Below are positions 14,633-49,724 of a DNA stretch of 64,000 nucleotides, piece after piece. Each line of letters begins with the position of its first letter. The stretch's first letter is position 1. The position numbers and the translations under genes were made by a program. Source of the DNA: Marinobacter koreensis (GTDB lineage: Bacteria; Pseudomonadota; Gammaproteobacteria; Pseudomonadales; Oleiphilaceae); NCBI RefSeq assembly GCF_023156285.1, contig NZ_JAKZAJ010000001.1:1-64000 (forward strand), in the 5' to 3' direction. The notes under the pieces are model-generated. The model did no database searches and was not told where the DNA came from. It saw nothing but the letters and a program-made list of their open reading frames with translations.

Positions 14633-14710
14633 TCAAGGTGCTGTTTAGCCGGGCTGTAGAGATGCGCGGTTCGGCCGGATTTACAAGCATCGCAACCAAT
14701 GAGGTGAAAT

Positions 14711-14980
14711 ATGGCACTTTCTGCCAATGAAAAAGCACAGATCGTTAAGGATTTTCAGCAAGGCGATGGCGATACCGGTTCCCCTGAAGTTCAGGTGGCA
14801 CTGCTGAGCGCCAACATCGACAAGCTGCAGGATCACTTCAAGGCCAACAAGCAGGATCACCATTCCCGCCGTGGCCTGATCCGGATGGTAAACCAGCGTC
14901 GTAAGCTGCTGGACTACCTCAAGCGCAAGAACGCTGACCGTTACCTGGACCTGATCCAGCGTCTGGGCCTGCGTCGCTAA
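14711..14980 (+). CDS. rpsO: 30S ribosomal protein S15
   Basis: Primary-binding small-subunit protein (89 residues, invariant family length) that contacts the central domain of 16S rRNA and bridge B4. The sequence carries the typical [18 protein letters not shown] and LIQRLGLRR motifs. GAGGTGAAAT precedes the ATG. In E. coli S15 represses its own translation via a leader pseudoknot; the 78 bases before this gene are long enough for such a structure but I could not establish one. A terminator-like hairpin follows at 15029. Confidence 0.99.
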
Positions 14981-31417: not shown

Positions 31418-31447
31418 GGGGTCAGATGAAAACTTTCATCTGACCCC
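31418..31447. repeat. GGGGTCAGATGAA-type palindromic repeat, copy 1
   Basis: GGGGTCAGATGAAA and its exact complement are separated by two bases (14-base arms), followed by GTTCAC nearby. It sits between the convergent cnoX and kamA genes and can serve both as a terminator. The same palindrome with small changes, also followed by GTTCAC, recurs at 48500. Confidence 0.85.
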
Positions 31448-37853: not shown

Positions 37854-37955
37854 GAGGCGGGGCATGCAATTCAGGACACGCTACGAGCACATCCATGTGC
37901 GCTTGTTTCGGGCCGTCCATGGCCCTCAACAGTCCTGAATTGCATGCCCCGCCTC
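37854..37955 (+). repeat. Structured intergenic element, copy 1 (54-base core inside perfect 24-base inverted arms)
   Basis: The left arm 37854-37877 and right arm 37932-37955 are perfectly complementary over 24 bases. They enclose a 54-base core (37878-37931). The core, read on the opposite strand, aligns without gaps to the core of the element at 49588-49695 (41 of 54 identical), although the arms of the two elements share no sequence. The core folds into a main hairpin with apex CATGGACG and a second around GCACATGGATGTGC, making a three-way junction on the arms. It sits between aceF and the next plus-strand gene, and there is no reading frame in it. See copy 2. Confidence 0.85.
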
Positions 37956-49561: not shown

Positions 49562-49587
49562 CGCGAAATCCCCAAAAAAGGTCTGGG

Positions 49588-49695
49588 GTCAGGCGAAGAA
49601 CCTCCCTCCGGGAATGTGCGAAGCCATGGACGGCTTCGCTCAAGCGCACATGGACGTGCTTGTAGCGTTTCCCGGAGGGAGGTTCTTCGCCTGAC
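49588..49695 (-). repeat. Structured intergenic element, copy 2 (54-base core inside perfect 27-base inverted arms)
   Basis: Arms 49588-49614 and 49669-49695 are perfectly complementary over 27 bases; the core 49615-49668 is 54 bases. In the core's first 28 bases, the stem GCGAAGCC/GGCTTCGC caps on CATGGACG. Compared with copy 1, three of its pairs have changed on both sides (A-T for G-C twice, G-C for T-A once) so that pairing is kept. The second hairpin is around GCACATGGACGTGC. On the minus strand the arm is followed at a few bases by TTTTTT. It lies between aotM and astE, both minus, hence in the same orientation relative to transcription as copy 1. Confidence 0.85.
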
Positions 49696-49724
49696 CATGC
49701 ACCAGAGGCTGGTCATTCGTGAAT

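Follow-up and report, generated by a model that had tools for sequence, protein, structure and literature searches.

Dispersed structured elements with a free-sequence stem and a conserved two-hairpin core in Marinobacter koreensis and its relatives

Integron attC sites are recognised as a folded single strand, and the sequence of their stem can vary; their conserved boxes lie at the base of the stem, and the tip varies. In MITEs and in Pseudomonas R0/R2-type repeats, the inverted repeats are identical and the core is variable (PMC2718517). At the RNA level, ANGGAN is the recognition motif of RsmA/RsmN (PMC3791407), and a single CsrA dimer bridges sites that are 10-63 nt apart (PMC4066749).

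Within a window of 64,000 nucleotides of Marinobacter koreensis –the whole stretch of DNA that was analysed– we found two members of an interspersed family of structured elements. The unit is a stem of ~28 bp and largely free sequence, capped by a conserved two-hairpin core of ~54 nt. Dispersed repeats are normally recognised by their alike ends. Here the ends are unrelated and pairing alone is kept, and thus such families can escape repeat finders. As far as could be found, the family was previously unnamed: in open-licence papers, we found no description of such elements.

Two elements in the window and their family

A sequence-only reading had described copy 1 as exactly complementary 24-base arms around a 54-base core, and copy 2 as a core of equal length, 41/54 identical to the first, between perfect but unrelated arms. 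Both descriptions were confirmed on the sequence (Table 1). The arms of copy 2 pair perfectly over 27 bp (49588-49614 with 49669-49695), and the stem reaches 28 bp when 49587/49696 is counted. The two cores lie on opposite strands, and their identity is seen once they are oriented alike. Against 200 dinucleotide shuffles, both copies fold much better (z -10.3 to -11.9). Copy 1 sits between aceF, where it follows a terminator-like hairpin, and a flavin oxidoreductase-like gene, and copy 2 is flanked by an AstE-like gene and by one for an ABC-transporter permease (all neighbours named from their translations, without a family search).

Table 1. Coordinates of the two elements in the window
Feature	Position	Strand	Remark
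Copy 1, left arm	37854-37877		24 bp, exact complement of 37932-37955
Copy 1, core	37878-37931	-	54 nt; GGA (folded) strand antisense to aceF and the next gene
Copy 1, first-hairpin hexaloop	37915-37920	-	AUGGAC (GGA strand)
Copy 1, second-hairpin hexaloop	37891-37896	-	AUGGAU (GGA strand)
Copy 1, right arm	37932-37955		
Copy 2, arm	49587-49614		28 bp with 49669-49696
Copy 2, core	49615-49668	+	54 nt; GGA strand antisense to both adjoining genes
Copy 2, first-hairpin hexaloop	49626-49631	+	AUGGAC
Copy 2, second-hairpin loop	49650-49655	+	AUGGAC
Copy 2, other arm	49669-49696		

The window also holds a ribosomal S15 leader (14646-14767, RF00114), its sole Rfam match, and a different palindromic intergenic repeat at 31418-31447, GGGGTCAGA...TCTGACCCC, which occurs at L135, L209, L257, and L407 as well. 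A REP-like repeat with GTAGGTCGGATTAGCGAAG or its core was seen at L211 and L378, and is not present in the window.

The sequence-only reading had proposed to search this genome and its relatives with a covariance model, and took a lack of further copies, or arms common to the copies, as speaking against its interpretation. Further copies are many and their arms are unrelated: the model found 58 copies in this Marinobacter genome (G000) and from 3 to at least 108 in 24 congeners, most of which hold tens to more than 100. The pattern of the two loop motifs alone occurs at 46 places in the genome, and the reversed control pattern at none. Across the order, 145/391 genomes, from 63 of the 142 genera sampled, gave matches at E<=1e-5; copies from different species are partly orthologous, and thus element counts are not counts of independent events. 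The copies were intergenic in all cases examined, and viral contigs, plasmids, and phages gave no matches. No Rfam family reached the gathering threshold at either window element; the best sub-threshold matches were microRNA-type hairpins, and no CsrA-sRNA family was among them.

Some copies are larger than those in the window. L413 (G000 C3:~71044), two further copies in G000 (C3:50072 and C1:381876), and L428 (G003) contain a nested stretch of ~80 bases with small hairpins of its own, inside core hairpin 1 and at a roughly equal position; it is either a second element or an expanded form of the core. L425 (G008) is another expanded form, with extra hairpins inserted in core hairpin 2. Other copies form close pairs (<400 bp apart), whose GGA strands point away from each other in 15/15 cases, with unrelated arms and non-conserved spacers. 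Three of these pairs are in G000 (C1:536605/536813, C5:48157/48339, and C5:294754/294933) and 12 in the relative G018.

A stem kept by pairing and a selected strand

To describe the stem we used 337 distinct copies from many species, collected by a pattern that demanded TCC in both loops; copies found by the covariance model lean towards that model. The stem has a sharp end, with Watson-Crick pairing of 0.82 at pair 27, 0.73 at pair 28, 0.42 at pair 29, and 0.20 at pair 30. Pairs 1-11, on the core side, and G17-G18 are partly conserved, and the remainder is nearly free.

Pairing itself is strongly maintained. In 45 copies, 97.0% of the cells were paired against 70.4% after shuffling, with 336 double-change cells against 79 and a covariation score of 0.70 against 0.18 (<=0.15 when slid); 21/22 stem pairs changed on both sides. 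Among non-orthologous copies, arm likeness was barely above that of column-shuffled arms, the slight excess lying solely in the extreme tail. Together with the mismatch asymmetry given below, the paired cells and the two-sided changes support the earlier suggestion that the arms evolve under pairing only. Its observation that ends differ between copies while pairing is kept also stands, and the shared terminal inverted repeats of a MITE are absent.

Stem mismatches are strongly asymmetric: 231 A·C and 19 G·T in the orientation of the alignment, that is, 231 G·U versus 19 A·C on the complementary (GGA) strand. Since the stem tolerates G·U and not A·C, the GGA strand is the folded, selected molecule. 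The direction of mismatches in related pairs was 41 versus 5, with the GGA strand tolerating G·U, which arose 23 times from G-C pairs and 18 times from A-T pairs. A C-to-T bias (deamination) as the sole source of the G·U excess was rejected, because both mutational routes contribute and are tolerated on one strand only. Thus, the strand reading ANGGAN in both hairpin loops is under selection. The folded molecule is most likely RNA, although the asymmetry by itself is compatible with a single strand of folded DNA as well.

Long-lived sites, replaced arms, and scars

Site orthology rests mainly on a single species pair, G000 and its ~95%-identical Marinobacter relative G018, where 42/55 copies are common in site and orientation. 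The 39 usable orthologous pairs fall into 18 with essentially unchanged arms and 21 with arms that are different but paired again. In the intact group the changes were few, 21 one-sided versus 4 compensated (counted before one shifted pair joined the group). In the replaced group, the double changes comprised 84 transitions and 130 transversions, and this share of transitions (39%) resembles that between unrelated copies (41%) and not that of the flanks (1716 transitions to 994 transversions). We therefore reject, for the 21 sites, that gradual compensatory change alone altered the arms; the 18 intact sites, with their dominance of one-sided changes, also speak against it.

The replaced stretch extends ~30-50 bp past the stem, and beyond it the identity of the flanks in most cases returns to 90-97% (left) and 80-85% (right). 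Pairs in which 22-26 of 38 outer-arm positions agree are intermediate, with arms that may be homologous; against the distribution of unrelated copies, 14/38 stand no higher than the 95th percentile and 20 no higher than the 99th. Copy 2 of the window is an intermediate case when compared to G018, with 7/27 pairs changed, all of them compensated.

Cores at the replaced-arm sites resembled each other more closely than permutation would predict (7.4 vs. 15.0, p=0.0005), which disfavours random independent insertion at shared sites. The sites are long-lived and keep their core; their arms either persist or give way to another pair that is again self-complementary. We saw no donor of the new arms within G000 or G018. 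Upstream of eno, the orientation of the element is opposite between Marinobacter species (L422, L448, and L450 versus L426 and L444).

Elements missing from G000 leave several kinds of scar. At L401, the outer arm halves remain fused in an element-free relative. This arrangement (GGAGCATGGCGGGG-CCCGCCATGCTCC) suggested an insertion into pre-existing palindromes, a candidate that we rejected, since several outgroups carry the element there (G001, G002, G004, G006, G008, G012, and G013); thus, L401 is a deletion scar. Scars of similar appearance were found in G009 (L429) and G008 (L442). In G001 (L423), a fragment of one element lies next to a complete element, which suggests renewal at the same site. 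Finally, the comparisons yielded no securely dated insertion; some, between occupied and empty sites, displayed 6-11 bp repeats (CGCGCA..) at the element ends, which may be target duplications or deletion repeats.

The core as a putative CsrA/RsmA docking site

On the GGA strand, 129/134 model-found copies presented a C[ANGGAN]G hexaloop in both core hairpins, with the two ANGGAN sites spaced 23-25 nt apart. The first loop position is always A, the second can be any base, the closing pair is C-G, and GGA is nearly constant; 5/134 copies lack two sites. The core combines ANGGAN in hairpin loops with two sites whose spacing lies within the 10-63 nt range expected of CsrA/RsmA-binding RNA, and it looks like a docking site for a CsrA/RsmA dimer. 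A csrA gene is present in this genome. Across the order, the association of csrA with the elements is weak: a match was missing in 2/145 element-positive versus 16/246 element-negative genomes (p=0.02, kinship ignored). Moreover, G261, a one-contig genome, has at least 10 elements and no CsrA match, which argues against a strict need for csrA.

Element orientation relative to genes is unbiased. Of 92 sites, 32 have the GGA strand sense to both flanking genes and 29, like the two window copies, antisense to both; the others are convergent (17) or divergent (14). We found no promoter-like (-10) enrichment near the elements, and T-runs of >=4 within 12 nt were seen at none of the GGA strands and 7% of the other strands. 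Thus, an element RNA would rely on read-through or antisense transcription, which makes the role of a classic sponge sRNA less likely and would be compatible with a selfish RNA or with folded ssDNA.

We consider it probable that this is a dispersed family of structured elements in which a free-sequence stem carries a two-hairpin core whose selected ANGGAN strand would dock CsrA/RsmA. The folded molecule would be an RNA arising from read-through or antisense transcription, and the stem a sequence-independent clamp that presents the two hairpins at a spacing of 23-25 nt, close enough for a single CsrA dimer to bridge both. In this reading each copy would serve CsrA as a small docking site or a decoy, or would be a selfish RNA exploiting the protein. 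More tentatively, and with considerable doubt on our side, the elements could be RNA repeats, mobile or renewing themselves, in which the CsrA-docking head is kept and a fresh, perfectly self-complementary 28-bp stem is built at each copying or renewal; the head would then hold the sequence identity, and the stem would inherit pairing only.

The elements might instead be mobile DNA moved in trans; a transposase or integrase would then recognise the GGA strand, folded as ssDNA, and single copies would be the solo ends of a two-ended unit. The same mutual arrangement in 15/15 close pairs (12 in G018, 3 in G000) and the end repeats of 6-11 bp at some sites would fit, and folded ssDNA would give an equal preference of G-T over A-C. 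We find it rather unlikely, since the ends are not common to copies, within-genome arms match no donor, the spacers of close pairs are not conserved, there is no strand bias along contigs, and outgroups show the site loss at L401 to be a deletion. No Y1 transposase match (PF01797, Y1_Tnp) was found in G000 or in several further high-copy genomes, whereas G003 has 22 and yet 6 element copies; an association with Y1/RAYT was thus rejected. A 1.2-kb gene lying within the inverted pair C2:446120/447518 was a transposase candidate that we set aside, since its sequence looks like an MFS-type transporter. 

The origin of the arms could also lie in the flanks, if insertion or later renewal used neighbouring DNA as the template for an inverted arm (by hairpin-primed synthesis, for instance), to give perfect arms at each event. 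Arms that are perfect yet unlike those of other copies point in this direction, as do the 21/39 orthologous sites where both arms are new and paired, with a share of transitions near that of unrelated copies and unlike that of the flanks. But the stem has a set length of about 28 bp and retains some conservation at positions 1-11 and 17-18, so the arms are not free copies of the flank. The sequence-only reading had raised such copying at insertion, and had pointed to an element-free aceF gap as the place to look for a pre-existing arm; these gaps contain neither arm, and the arm sequence left without an element at L401 is a deletion scar by its outgroups. Thus, that proposal was not borne out, and we regard flank copying in general as improbable. 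Least probable is that the elements are ordinary bidirectional terminators or 3' UTR stabilisers with convergent similarity. Their hairpins are long and GC-rich, and the aceF copy lies behind a terminator-like hairpin, but the succession that marks an intrinsic terminator (G+C hairpin, then T-run, sense to the gene) is not seen given the T-run counts above, 14/92 sites are divergent with unbiased orientation, and the unpaired core and loops are conserved.

If the CsrA reading is true, marine bacteria could have dozens of long-lived loci that buffer a global post-transcriptional regulator, and the range of 3 to >100 copies among congeners would be a natural experiment. How arms come to be replaced wholesale at fixed sites is a clear question of mechanism, and closely related strains offer the means to answer it.

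Compared to known systems, the elements share with the CsrA-sequestering sRNAs of the CsrB/RsmY/RsmZ type several stable hairpins per RNA that carry ANGGAN hexaloops at a spacing suited to a dimer. Unlike them, they have two main sites, dozens of dispersed copies, and a 28-bp clamp stem of free sequence, and they present neither a promoter or terminator signature of their own nor an Rfam match. REP/BIME/REPIN repeats with RAYT (Y1) transposases are also short, palindromic, and intergenic, of high copy number and often in inverted pairs, but in our elements each copy has a stem of its own under a common apical core; there is no shared palindrome sequence, this genome has no Y1 genes –RAYT included–, and across genomes such genes do not follow the copy number of the element. 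Unlike integron attC sites, the elements keep the tip and vary the base, and no cassette array was seen. With MITEs and Pseudomonas R0/R2-type repeats (PMC2718517) they share an intergenic location, a size of ~100 bp, and a stem with an inner core; their arms are variable and their core is conserved, which is the reverse of those families.
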